Below, in pieces: positions 16,162 to 20,100 of a stretch of DNA of 64,000 nt; within the stretch, counting starts at the first letter, position 1, and each line of letters starts with the position of its first letter. This DNA comes from Catenulispora sp. EB89 (lineage in GTDB: Bacteria; Actinomycetota; Actinomycetes; Streptomycetales; Catenulisporaceae). A model generated the notes under the pieces. That model was not told where the DNA came from. It worked only from the letters and a program-made list of their open reading frames with translations, and made no database searches. Location: contig NZ_JBGCCU010000015.1 in NCBI RefSeq assembly GCF_041261445.1, positions 186,001-250,000 of the forward strand, read 5' to 3'. The position numbers and the translations under genes were made by a program.

Positions 16162-16953
16162 TCAGTCCCGCACCAGCTCCCACAACCGGGCCCAGTCCTC
16201 GGCCGCCAGGTCCTTGGGCAGGGCCCGGGCCGGGATCCGGCTCCACCGGACCCACTCCCGCAGCTCCGCGCGCCGCACCCGCCCGGTGCGGCCGATCATG
16301 TCCTCCAGCCCGCGCCCCGGCGCCTGGAAGACCTGCTTCACAAAGGCCTGATACCCCTGGCGGCCGTCGACCAGCGGCACGGCCCGCCGGTGCATCAGCA
16401 GCAGCCCGGCGTCCACCGACGGCACCGGCCGGAACGCGGAAGCCGGGATCCGCCGCACCAGGCGGAAGTCGTACCACGGCCACCACGCGGCGGTGAGCAT
16501 GCTCGCCCCGCCGACCCCGGCCCGGCGCCGTGCCACCTCCCACTGCACGATCAGCACCGCGCTGCTCCATCCGCGCTCGGACAGCAGCTTCCTGATGATC
16601 GCCGTCGTGAGGTGGAACGGCACGTTGCCGACGATCATGTGCGGCGCGGCCGGGAAGCGGTGGCGCAGGACGTCGGCCTGCCTGACGTCCACGCTGTCCA
16701 CGCCGTCGTCGCCGAAGTGCCGCTGGAGCCGCCGCACCCGCCGCGGATCGATCTCCAGCGCCGTGACCGGCCGGTTCAGCCGCGACAACGGTCCGGTGAG
16801 GGCGCCGTCGCCGGCCCCGAGCTCGATGATCGGGCCCCGCGTCTCGTCCCGGACCAGCCGTTGGATGGCGGCGATCAGCGCGGGATCGGCCAGGAAGTTC
16901 TGGCCGAGTTCGTGGCGTCCACCAAGGAATTCAGAAGTCTTCTGGTACTGCAT
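16162..16953 (-). CDS. erm: Erm-type 23S rRNA adenine N6-methyltransferase
   Basis: 263 residues of the KsgA/Erm family. The N-terminal HELGQNFLADPALIAAIQRLV, SAM motif I IIELGAGDGALTGPLSRL (about residues 41-58), acidic loop LEIDPRRVRRLQRHF and catalytic GNVPFHLTTAIIRKLL (N-V-P-F, with adenine-stacking Phe) favour Erm over KsgA, which has NLPY. Erm enzymes dimethylate A2058 of 23S rRNA and give resistance to macrolides, lincosamides and streptogramin B. I chose ATG 16953, preceded by CGGAG. GTG 16995 is in frame but lies in the hairpin that masks this RBS. A 12-codon leader ORF upstream suggests attenuation control. The gene stands alone after the cobN terminator. No antibiotic biosynthesis gene is nearby. 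Confidence 0.9.
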   Translation of the reverse strand: MQYQKTSEFLGGRHELGQNFLADPALIAAIQRLVRDETRGPIIELGAGDGALTGPLSRLNRPVTALEIDPRRVRRLQRHFGDDGVDSVDVRQADVLRHRFPAAPHMIVGNVPFHLTTAIIRKLLSERGWSSAVLIVQWEVARRRAGVGGASMLTAAWWPWYDFRLVRRIPASAFRPVPSVDAGLLLMHRRAVPLVDGRQGYQAFVKQVFQAPGRGLEDMIGRTGRVRRAELREWVRWSRIPARALPKDLAAEDWARLWELVRD

Positions 16954-16995
16954 GTGCTGCTCCGCGGCTCGCTCGCGATCGAAGCCGGGCAGCAC
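16954..16995 (-). promoter_or_regulatory. RBS-masking hairpin in the erm leader
   Basis: On the reverse strand GTGCTGC (16995-16989) pairs perfectly with GCAGCAC (16960-16954), the bases directly before the erm ATG. The inner CGGCTTCG and CGAGCCG also pair with one bulge. The arm between them contains the CGGAG ribosome-binding site. When folded, the structure should hide the erm start. An upstream alternative pairing (GGCGGG near 17060 with CCCGCC near 17035) begins at the leader stop codon, as in translational attenuators. Confidence 0.6.
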
Positions 16996-17062
16996 TGAGC
17001 GGCCGCACCGGCAGGGACTCGGATGCGGCGGGAATCGCAGATCAGGGGATCGCTACCCGCCG

Positions 17063-17101
17063 TCAGAGGCGGATGCGAATGAACAGCGCGTTGCAACACA
17101 T
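17063..17101 (-). CDS. erm leader peptide, 12 residues (MCCNALFIRIRL)
   Basis: A small ORF from ATG 17101 to TGA 17063, 109 bases before the erm ATG, encodes MCCNALFIRIRL. Residues 9-11 are Arg-Ile-Arg, the plus-x-plus pattern at which macrolide-bound ribosomes are known to stall in several erm leader peptides. Stalling here would cover the first arm of the downstream hairpins and free the erm RBS. Its own RBS is weak (CTAGG/GGCTCC), and GTG 17107 is an alternative start. The peptide is inferred from position, motif and RNA folding, not from similarity to a named leader. Confidence 0.55.
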   Translation of the reverse strand: MCCNALFIRIRL

Positions 17102-17122
17102 GGTCACGGAGCCTAGCAAGCA

Positions 17123-17157
17123 CCCCGCCGGATCTTCCTGTCATTTATCCGGCGGGG
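17123..17157 (-). terminator. Terminator after cobN
   Basis: An 11-bp perfect stem, CCCCGCCGGAT (17123-17133) with ATCCGGCGGGG (17147-17157), has a 13-base loop. It starts 10 bases after the cobN stop on the reverse strand and lies before the erm leader peptide, separating the two transcription units. Confidence 0.7.
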
Positions 17158-17166
17158 AAGGTGGCG

Positions 17167-20100
17167 TCACTCCCCTTCGAGCTCGCCTTCCAGCTCCAGG
17201 AACACCTGGCGCAGCCCGTCCAGCGTCTGCTCCTCCGGCTCGGCCCACAGCCCGCGCTCGGCGGCCTCCAACAGCCGTTCGGAGATCCCGCGCAGCGCCC
17301 ACGGGTTCGAGCGCTCCATGAACGCGCGGTTCGTCTCGTCGAAGACGTAGGTCTGCGCCAACTGCTCGTACATCCAGTCGTCCACGACCCCGGCGGTGGC
17401 GTCGTAGCCGAACAGGTAGTCGACCGTCGCGGCCAGTTCGAAGGCGCCCTTGTAGCCGTGCCGCTGCATCGCCGCCACCCACCGCGGGTTCACCACGCGG
17501 GCCCGGAACACCCGGTGCGTCTCCTCGGCCAGCGTCCGGGTCCGGACGGCCTCCGGCACCGCCGAGTCGCCGACGTACGCCGCCGGCGAGGTGCCGGTCA
17601 GCGAACGCACCATCGCCACCATGCCGCCGTGGTACTGGAAGTAGTCGTCGGAGTCGACGATGTCGTGCTCGCGGTTGTCCTGGTTCTTCGCCGCGACCTG
17701 GATGCGCCGGAAGGAGTTCTCCATGTCGCCGCGCGCCTCGCGGCCGTCCAGGCCCCGGCCGTAGGCGTAGCCGCCCCAGACCGCGTAGACCTCGGCGAGG
17801 TCGGCGTCGGTGCGCCAGTCGCGGGCGTCGATCAGCGGCAGCAGGCCGGCCCCGTACGCCCCGGGCTTGGAGCCGAACACGCGCGTGGTGGCGCGGCGGC
17901 GGTCGCCGTGCGCGGCGGTGTCGGCGTCGGCGTGCGCCCGGACGTAGTTGTCCGCGGCGGTTTCGTCGAGCTCTGCGACAGCCTGGACGGCGTCATCAAT
18001 GAGCGCGATGACGTGCGGGAAGGCGTCACGGAAGAATCCTGAGATACGAACCGTGACATCGATGCGCGGCCGGCCCAGCTCGGCGACCGGCACCACTTCG
18101 AAGCCGGTGACCCGGCGCGAGGCCTCGTCCCACACCGGACGGCAGCCGAGCAGGTGCAGGATCTCGGCGATGTCGTCGCCCTGGGTCCGCATCGCCGAGG
18201 TGCCCCAGACGGTCAGGCCGACCGAGCGCGGGTACTCGCCGGTGTCGGCGAGGTGGCGCGCGATCAGCGACTCAGCGAGGGCCACGCCGACGTCCCAGGC
18301 GTTGCGCGAGGGGATGGCCTTCGGGTCGACGGAGTAGAAGTTGCGGCCGGTCGGCAGAACACTGACAAGCCCCCGAGTCGGGGCGCCGGAGGGGCCGGCC
18401 GCGATGTAGCGGCCGTCGAGGGCGCGCATTACGTTGGCGATCTCGTCGGTGGTGCGGGCCAGGCGCGGGACGAGTTCGGTGGCGGCGAAGCGCAGGACGG
18501 CCGCGATCTCCGATGCCTCCGATGCCGGCTCTTCTTCCGCTGCCGGCGCTACTGCCGACCCCGCCGCGCGGGCCTGCGCCGCAGCGCCGAGCACCGCATC
18601 GCAGACCCCTGGCACCGCCGCCGGATCCCAGCCCTGTGCGGCCAGCGCGTCCACCAGCCGCCGGGCCAGTTTCTCCAGCAGGTCCACGGCATCGGACGCG
18701 GACCGGGCCGGCGCCCCGTCGTCGCCGGCCAGTTCCGCCAGCAGCTCCGGCACCTTCACCGCCGCCCCCGGCTCGGCGAGCAGCACCTGCTCGTCGAGCC
18801 CGACGTACGCCGCCAACGCCTGCCGCAACCCGGTGACCGCGCCGTTCACCCCGCCGAAGACCTGCTTGGCGCGCAGGATCGCCAGCACGTCGGCGACCAG
18901 CTCCTCGCCCTCCGGTGCGCGCCCGAGGATGTGCAGCCCGTCGCGGATCTGCACGTCCTTGATCTCGCACAGGTACCCGTCCAGGTGCAGCACGAAGTCG
19001 TCGAAGTCGCCGTCGTCGGGCTGCCGGTCGACGTCCCCGTGCAGGATCGCGGCCAGGTCGTGGTGCAGCTGCGCGGCGCGGATCAGGGTCCAGATCTGCG
19101 CGCGCACCGCCGGCGTCTTGTCCGGGTCCAGCGCCTGCACGGTCGCGTACTCGTCGAGCAGCTGCTCCAGCTTGGCCAGGTCGCCGTAGGTGTCGGCGCG
19201 GGCCATCGGCGGCATCAGGTGGTCCACGACGGTGGCGTGCCCGCGCCGCTTGGCCTGCGTGCCCTCGCCGGGATCGTTGACGATGAACGGGTACACCAGC
19301 GGCAGCTCGCCGAGGACGGCGTCCGGGGCGCAGGACTCTGACAAGCCCAGTCCCTTGCCGGGGAGCCATTCCAGCGTGCCGTGCTTGCCCAGGTGCACCA
19401 CGGCGTCCGCGCCGAAGCTGTGCTCCAGCCAGCGGTAGGCGGCCAGGTAGTGGTGGCTCGGCGGCAGGTCGGGGTCGTGGTAGATGGCGATCGGGTTCTC
19501 GCCGAAGCCGCGCGGGGGCTGGATCATCAGCAGGATGTTGTCGAACTGGAGCGAGGCCAGGACGATGTCGTCGCCGTCCACGTAGAGCGCGCCGGGCGGC
19601 TCGCCCCAGTGCCGGCGGATGCCCTCGCGCAGGTCCTCGGGGAGCGAGGCGAACCAGGACTCGTAGTCACGCAGCGGGACGCGCGCGGGCGCCGCGGCCA
19701 GCTGCTCCTCGGTGAGCCATTCGACGTCGTGGCCGCCGGCCGCGATCAGGCGGTGGATGAGCTGGTCGCCGTCGTCGGGGAAGTCGCCCACGGTGTAGCC
19801 GGCCGCGCGCAGCGCGTGCAGCAGGCGGACGGCGCTGGCCGGGGTGTCGAGGCCGACGGCGTTGCCGACGCGCGCGTGCTTGGTCGGGTAGGAGGACAGG
19901 ACGAGCGCGAGCTTCTTGTCGCGGTTGGGGATGCCGCGCAGGGCGGCGTGCCGGTAGGCGATGCCGGCCAGGCGTGCGGCGCGTTCTTCGTCGGCGACGT
20001 AGACCGGGATGTCCGCCTCTGAGTCCTGGCCCCGGCCGGTCTCCTTGAAGGAGAAGGGGACGGCGATCAGGCGGCCGTCGAATTCCGGGATGGCGACCTG

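Follow-up and report, generated by a model that had tools for sequence, protein, structure and literature searches.

A probable drug-responsive attenuator upstream of erm in Catenulispora sp. EB89 and its scaffold relatives before other actinomycete resistance genes

The erm locus and its leader ORF

The window is the whole 64,000-nucleotide stretch of Catenulispora sp. EB89 DNA that was analysed, and the features described here all lie on its minus strand. The erm gene (16162–16953) encodes a 23S rRNA (A2058) methyltransferase of 263 amino acids that is placed in the Erm(38/46/55) group by its NCBIfam matches. The ORF containing this gene (16995–16162) scored 255.6 bits against the NCBIfam model Erm23S_rRNA_broad (cut-off 212), and its top-scoring match was Erm(46) with 298 bits. 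An erm match was found in nine of the ten Catenulispora genomes examined, with identities between the window Erm and the other Catenulispora Erm proteins of 97 to 81%; the named genomes nearest to the source genome are C. rubra and C. pinisilvae. From the sequence, the likely start codon of erm is the ATG at 16953, preceded by the Shine-Dalgarno (SD) sequence GGAG (16963–16960). The GTG at 16995 that had been listed as the erm start was rejected, as it is the first base of RNA segment 5 described below and the relatives begin at the ATG.

Upstream of erm, the cobN gene ends at 17167 and is followed by an inverted repeat (CCCCGCCGGAT...ATCCGGCGGGG, 17157–17123) that looks like the cobN terminator. 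This likely terminator hairpin overlaps the A box and the -35 region of the erm promoter, and the same overlap of terminator and erm promoter is seen in some relatives, for example L009.

The original prediction of a 12-codon ORF ahead of the Erm methylase gene was borne out by an upstream ORF (uORF) at 17101–17063 that is co-directional with erm and encodes MCCNALFIRIRL (ATG TGT TGC AAC GCG CTG TTC ATT CGC ATC CGC CTC TGA). Its +X+ motif, Arg9-Ile10-Arg11 (17077–17069), had also been predicted, and it proved to be conserved as RxR in the nine Catenulispora loci and in 60 of 70 actinomycete Erm loci. These 60 loci satisfy a joint criterion of a TANNNT element 6–9 nt before the start codon, a length of 6–30 codons and an RxR within three residues of the stop codon. 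The chance control for this criterion consisted of dinucleotide shuffles, of which 20/7000 (0.29%) matched, and the shuffle and permutation controls used here leave part of the shared ancestry in place. Across the class, an Erm match at E<=1e-30 was found in 57 of 395 genomes.

In the window promoter, the -10 element TAGGCT (17110–17115) lies 8 nt upstream of the uORF ATG. The corresponding distance from TANNNT is 6–8 nt in each of the 60 loci, which would place the transcription start on the start codon or no more than about three bases from it. This spacing suggests that the window leader is probably translated leaderless. An A/T-rich box, ATAAAT (17143–17148), occupies a WhiB7-like position upstream of the -35 region, and no recognisable -35 hexamer is present in the window promoter. 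An A-rich box at -31 to -35 from the start of the -10 element, which we take to be the place of the WhiB7 site, occurs in 30 of the 60 Erm loci compared to 6.6% of shuffles. The source genome encodes a WhiB7 ortholog (L118) featuring the AT hook RPRGRPRK, and this protein may bind and control the window promoter.

The six-segment RNA and the proposed switch

The leader RNA can be divided into six segments with alternative partners, assigned to a proposed ON or OFF state. Segment 1 (CCGCC, 17068–17072) is found within the RIRL codons and pairs with segment 2 (GGCGGG, 17056–17061), which directly follows the uORF stop codon and pairs with segment 1 (OFF) or 3 (ON). Segment 3 (CCCGCCGCAUCC, 17021–17032) pairs with segment 2 (ON) or 4 (OFF), and segment 4 (GCCGGUGCGGC, 17002–17012) pairs with segment 3 (OFF) or 5 (ON). 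Segment 5 (GUGCUGCCCGGCU, 16995–16983), which holds the GTG mis-listed as an ORF start, pairs with segment 4 or 6, and segment 6 (AGCCGCGGAGCAGCAC, 16969–16954) carries the erm SD and pairs with segment 5. The 5:6 pairing corresponds to the hairpin that had been predicted over the erm ribosome-binding site. The hairpin is real and its stem covers the SD, but it is perfect only in the outer 7 bp, with a bulged inner part, and it is merely one helix of a six-segment switch. Folding of the whole window leader gave a z-score of -2.9 against shuffles, with 2/200 shuffles as good. A long-range pairing between AUGUGUUGC at the beginning of the leader and GCAGCACAU at the beginning of erm appears in the minimum free energy structure; it was rejected as a family feature, since it decays in the relatives L008 and L016.

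The family consensus features a post-stop CGGCGG as segment 2, whose alternative partners are the Arg codons and the CCGCCGC of segment 3, followed by GCCGGUGCGGC or GCCGGGCGGC as segment 4, which pairs with segment 3 or with segment 5 (GUGCUGCCCGG). Segments 4 and 5 are nearly invariant in alignments A1 and A2. Four Catenulispora loci (L005, L008, L009 and L010) contain approximately 15–20 extra bases (GTGCTTGAATCAAAAGCATGG-like) between these two segments.

Support for the individual helices was provided by an own-versus-cross test, which asks whether the segments of one locus form a better duplex with each other than with the partner segments of other loci. The test was applied to 18 deduplicated erm loci and, as an independent repeat, to 14 deduplicated non-erm loci. 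Co-variation was observed in the erm and non-erm sets respectively for helix 1:2 (P=0.026 and P<1e-4), helix 2:3 (P<1e-4 and P=0.0035), helix 3:4 (P<1e-4 in both) and helix 5:6 (P=0.0009 and P=0.0048). For 4:5 the values were P=0.32 and 0.03, the near-invariance of these segments making co-variation a poor test of this pairing. The control pairings 1:4, 2:4, 2:6, 1:6, 4:6 and 1:5 gave P>0.12 in the 18 erm loci and P>0.22 in the 14 non-erm loci. Segment 3 also co-varies with segment 6 (P=0.002 and 0.016), so that part of the OFF state could consist of 3:6 in place of 5:6. Compensation within 5:6 is visible across genera as CCCGGGA/UCCCGG (L034), CCCGGGU/ACCCGG (L035), CCCGGGC/GCCCGG (L032), GGCUC/GAGCC (L028) and GGCUU/AAGCC (L025). 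The structure favoured by RNAalifold combines 2:3 and 4:5 with a short pairing of segments 1 and 6 and lacks 5:6, and the consensus contains little co-variation because the core segments each serve two partners.

In the proposed mechanism, a WhiB7-type promoter would produce an RNA whose 5' end coincides with the uORF start or lies no more than about 3 nt from it, and ribosomes would initiate there leaderless. Without drug, the ribosome would reach the stop codon and mask segment 2, allowing 3:4 and 5:6 to form so that the erm SD is hidden by 5:6. An untranslated leader would form 1:2, 3:4 and 5:6 and would likewise be OFF. A macrolide- or ketolide-bound ribosome is predicted to stall when the middle residue of RxR occupies its P site; in most members termination is then three codons away, and in Catenulispora two. 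The stalled ribosome would then mask segment 1 and leave segment 2 free to form 2:3, after which 4:5 would form, segment 6 would be released and Erm would be made.

Computed SD accessibility across the family agrees in direction with this scheme. Stalling at RxR gave a mean SD opening energy of 5.64 kcal/mol, compared with 7.27 kcal/mol for the ribosome at the stop codon and 7.36 kcal/mol for untranslated leaders. Compared with the ribosome at the stop codon, stalling made opening cheaper in 41 of 58 loci and dearer in 9 (Wilcoxon p=5e-7). This difference arises because the RxR-(R)-x-stop distance is near-fixed, so that the masking of segment 2 depends on nine nucleotides. By footprint, the probability of an unpaired SD was about 0.20 at +4 versus 0.12 at +8 to +25, a weak effect in the same direction. 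For the window copy, equilibrium folding gave an SD opening energy of 5.4 kcal/mol both for the stalled ribosome and for the ribosome at the stop codon, and 11.5 kcal/mol for the untranslated leader. The Catenulispora leaders have one codon fewer between RxR and stop, and part of their segment 2 would therefore lie under a ribosome footprint of 16 nt. In the model, the strong 5:6 stem of the window copy would need co-transcriptional folding to stay open.

An unlikely alternative is transcription attenuation, with 3:4 as a premature terminator and 2:3 as the antiterminator formed upon RxR stalling, so that RNA length and not SD access would be regulated. LmrC in Streptomyces uses a terminator (PMC8546547), and a U run follows the 3:4 stem in some relatives (L020 GCGGCTTTTTC, L016 GGCGCCCTTTTCC, L062 GCGGCTTTTCG), but it is absent from the window copy (CCGCTCAGTG) and from most members. 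The co-variation of 5:6 over the SD also counts against this alternative, as a pure terminator model has no need of that helix. The window leader can be regarded with good confidence as a member of a conserved actinomycete attenuator family that works by the stalling switch set out above. The computed support consists of the homology, the leaderless spacing, the conservation of RxR at the protein level and the co-variation of 1:2, 2:3, 3:4 and 5:6; translation of the leader, stalling by the drug, the direction of the switch and control by WhiB7 are inferred.

The leader peptide across Erm loci

Comparison of the regions upstream of the erm orthologues identified MCC...RIR/RTR leaders in all nine Catenulispora erm loci. 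The C. rubra uORF is the same as that of the window, and those of the other Catenulispora loci are MCCTAMIIRTRL, MCCFNAIFIRTRA, MCCNAISIRIRL, MCCNAMIIRIRL, MCCNAIFIRTRV, MCCCMMITRTRA and MCCCSPMTRIRRL. Outside the genus, the erm gene of Microbispora corallina is preceded by MFCACFTRIRRS, and the nearer Erm loci feature MCCFACFTRIRRS, MGICAFYIRIRRS, MGSGAFFVAFFVRLRRA and leaders ending in FRDRRA. Among named plasmid genes, erm(36) has the leader MGSPSIAVTRFRRF, erm(55) has MGITSVAVIRIRRF and erm(X) has MLISGTAFLRLRSNR. The idea of a macrolide-responsive leader thus survived comparison with relatives, in which both the short ORF and the hairpin are conserved, and the motif and RNA scaffold extend beyond the genus through the class. 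The earlier reading of the leader and its likely purpose is supported, with three additions: a probably leaderless translation, the WhiB7-like A-rich box and the presence of the module before non-erm genes as well.

The exceptions to the joint criterion include erm(46) (VTEFRRF), L063 (TRPW), L019, in which a deletion has occurred, and erm(50) and erm(51), where RLR is found mid-way in a longer leader. In the erm(46) leader of a Prescottella equi plasmid (L069), Glu replaces the first Arg and the RNA scaffold is intact. This plasmid also carries an ABC-F gene upstream of erm(46).

The codon for the first Arg of RxR is CGG in 21 loci, AGG in 19, CGC in 15 and CGT in 2, indicating that the residue is conserved and not the bases. 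The middle residue is mostly Ile, Leu, Pro, Thr or Asp, and the second and third Arg codons are almost always CGC. With a varied first Arg codon and a near-fixed CGC later, constraints on both the peptide and the RNA are visible. Among the residues before RxR in the 60 uORFs, Cys accounts for 14.5% and Lys is absent.

This Cys content and the MCC start of all nine Catenulispora leaders would suit a cysteine-responsive attenuator with the Cys codons as its sensor, similar to the poly-Cys leaderless ORFs of mycobacteria, which are known as attenuators according to work cited in PMC13236596. The two systems have a leaderless uORF, Cys codons and attenuation in common, but the poly-Cys attenuators serve cysteine genes, and the genes downstream of the RxR leaders confer resistance to ribosome-targeting drugs and are not sulfur genes. 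Cys is not conserved in the RxR scaffold family, being absent from the Erm(X), Erm(36) and Erm(55) leaders and from most MFS leaders, in which RxR is kept, and a cysteine sensor is accordingly very improbable. Equally little probability is given to conservation of the RNA alone, with the ORF arising incidentally from a structured GC stem rich in Arg codons and being neither translated nor sensed. The near-constant CGC at Arg11 and the next Arg is what the 1:2 helix demands, but the four codons used for the first Arg and the varied middle codon speak against this explanation, as do the start and stop codons of the uORF, which keep frame and promoter spacing. Least probable of all is a shortage of Arg-tRNA stalling the leader ribosome by trp-operon logic, since the two or three Arg codons at the stall position required by the switch form an R-x-R that fits the known drug-arrest motif (PMC8298421) and the regulated genes are of the Erm, ABC-F, efflux and Lnu types rather than arginine genes.

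Distribution of the scaffold and its relation to known leaders

Covariance model R3, built from 26 erm leaders with no Catenulispora sequence, matched the window at 16959–17077 with E=3.6e-9, the next best match in the 64 kb having a value of 0.11. Rfam 15 gave nothing better than chance-level matches in window positions 16500–17500 and none over the attenuator in six relatives. A scan of the source genome for further copies identified only the erm copy as significant (next E=0.62 and 1.07). In 38 of the 395 genomes of the class that were scanned, model R1, made from erm leaders alone, gave a total of 40 matches at E<=1e-3. By reading of the neighbour genes, these were assigned to 16 erm genes, 10 DHA2 MFS pumps, 8 LmrA-like MFS pumps and 5 TlrC/CarA-type ABC-F genes, with one match (L171) lacking an identified gene. 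Model R2, run over 200 genomes of one family, provided 72 matches in 63 genomes, located before 33 erm, 15 DHA2 MFS, 13 LmrA-like, 10 ABC-F and 1 Lnu(F)-like gene, some of them degraded. The Lnu(F)-like nucleotidyltransferase scored 157 bits, and its RNA match is weak (E=9e-5). The non-erm loci that carry the scaffold are L087, L089, L091, L093–L097, L099–L106, L127, L134, L136, L139 and L141–L170.

Each gene class has its own type of leader peptide: MPxSDRxRRP for MFS, MSGASxAAACAAVTRTLR for LmrA-like pumps, MYTGTAFMRPRLRA, ...AMRPWTRA or MFTASLRLRPRA for ABC-F and MCAIAVTDLRLS for Lnu. Some MFS leaders have kept the scaffold without RxR (MPESVDVAA, MPLAKELAAL and MPESDDAAA in L091, L093, L095 and L097), and the Ala near their end might, as a guess, reflect another drug class with a chloramphenicol/oxazolidinone-type context. 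The scaffold would accordingly appear to be a module and the peptide an exchangeable sensor. The family probably switches resistance genes on when a drug jams the ribosome. On balance, the matches favour an undescribed modular family of antibiotic-sensing RNAs across Actinomycetes, in which one leaderless-uORF, six-segment scaffold stands before at least five unrelated resistance families (Erm, TlrC/CarA-type ABC-F, LmrA-like MFS, DHA2 MFS and Lnu(F)-like). The C-terminal sensor peptide would be particular to each of these families, a few codons setting the drug that is sensed.

It is established that erythromycin and telithromycin arrest the ribosome at the +X+ motif of ErmDL (PMC8298421). 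In common with the RxR leaders, the ErmDL leader of ermD and the rest of the +X+ (RLR) class place a short Arg-x-Arg uORF before erm, with RNA structure that disfavours erm translation; the actinomycete scaffold differs from the ErmDL type in having six segments, in being common to several gene families and in its near-fixed distance between RxR and stop. To our knowledge, a leaderless start has not previously been noted for +X+ erm leaders. For erm(X), PMC3350403 proposed a leader peptide. The erm(X) leader has TATAAT 7 nt before its ATG and matches the RNA model weakly (E=0.007). The erm(55), erm(46) and erm(36) genes of mycobacteria, Prescottella and Micrococcus share the uORF class and the RNA scaffold, with the RIR motif of the window leader itself present in erm(55) and the Glu substitution setting erm(46) apart. 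R3 matched erm(55) with E=4.8e-15, where an identical sequence (L032) is in the training set, and erm(46) with 7.9e-12. Inducible clarithromycin resistance has been reported for erm(55) (PMC11878018, PMC13044508), and in the papers found on erm(55), erm(46) and erm(36) the leader is undescribed.

Attenuation by uORFs is also known for ABC-F genes and whiB7 (PMC8546547, PMC10201436, PMC12421871, PMC13236596). The ABC-F systems (lmrC, tiaA, are5sc, cplR, vmlR) likewise combine a uORF with alternative RNA structures before the ABC-F gene. Their uORFs are very short (MLV, MRI, MVGDDDISG), and lincosamides, pleuromutilins and streptogramin A drugs stall the ribosome there at or near the start (PMC12421871, PMC10201436), whereas those of the scaffold family have about 11–18 codons and Arg motifs near the end. 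The whiB7/wblC leader is another actinobacterial uORF attenuator responsive to ribosome drugs, but it regulates the activator gene itself and is reported as transcriptional attenuation (PMC13236596).

In the open-licence papers searched, leaderless RxR leaders on a scaffold common to Erm, ABC-F, MFS and Lnu genes were not described. The novelty of the shared scaffold is regarded as provisional, and the surprising part is the shared modular family. One leader type and one scaffold across many actinomycete families contrasts with a survey in which erm leaders lacked universal conservation, had independent origins and derived from an ancestral state without leaders (PMC11264731). Among the genes with this leader type are erm(55), erm(46) and erm(36), which are encountered in the clinic. 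The shared leader makes the origin of inducible macrolide resistance testable, and the covariance model can flag unannotated inducible resistance genes. With the scaffold held constant, the naturally varied sensor peptides also offer a way to probe what ribosomes stalled by each drug recognise.

Several individual copies depart from the common arrangement. In genome G184 (L019, region G184:C1:3521607-3522350), a 62-nt deletion relative to the close relative L051 removes the RxR codons, the stop codon, segment 2 and most of segment 3, joining the leaderless start in frame to erm (MGAFAASGSHAGAAPHAARLHLPRGATPMSSPSRHGG...). This fusion has the look predicted for a constitutive derivative of a leaderless attenuator. 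The copies L163 and L152 are decayed, with leaders before remnants of LmrA-like and ABC-F genes, and the orphan copy L171 (G202:C21:1149-1260) carries a full leader, MGICVVFIRDRRF.
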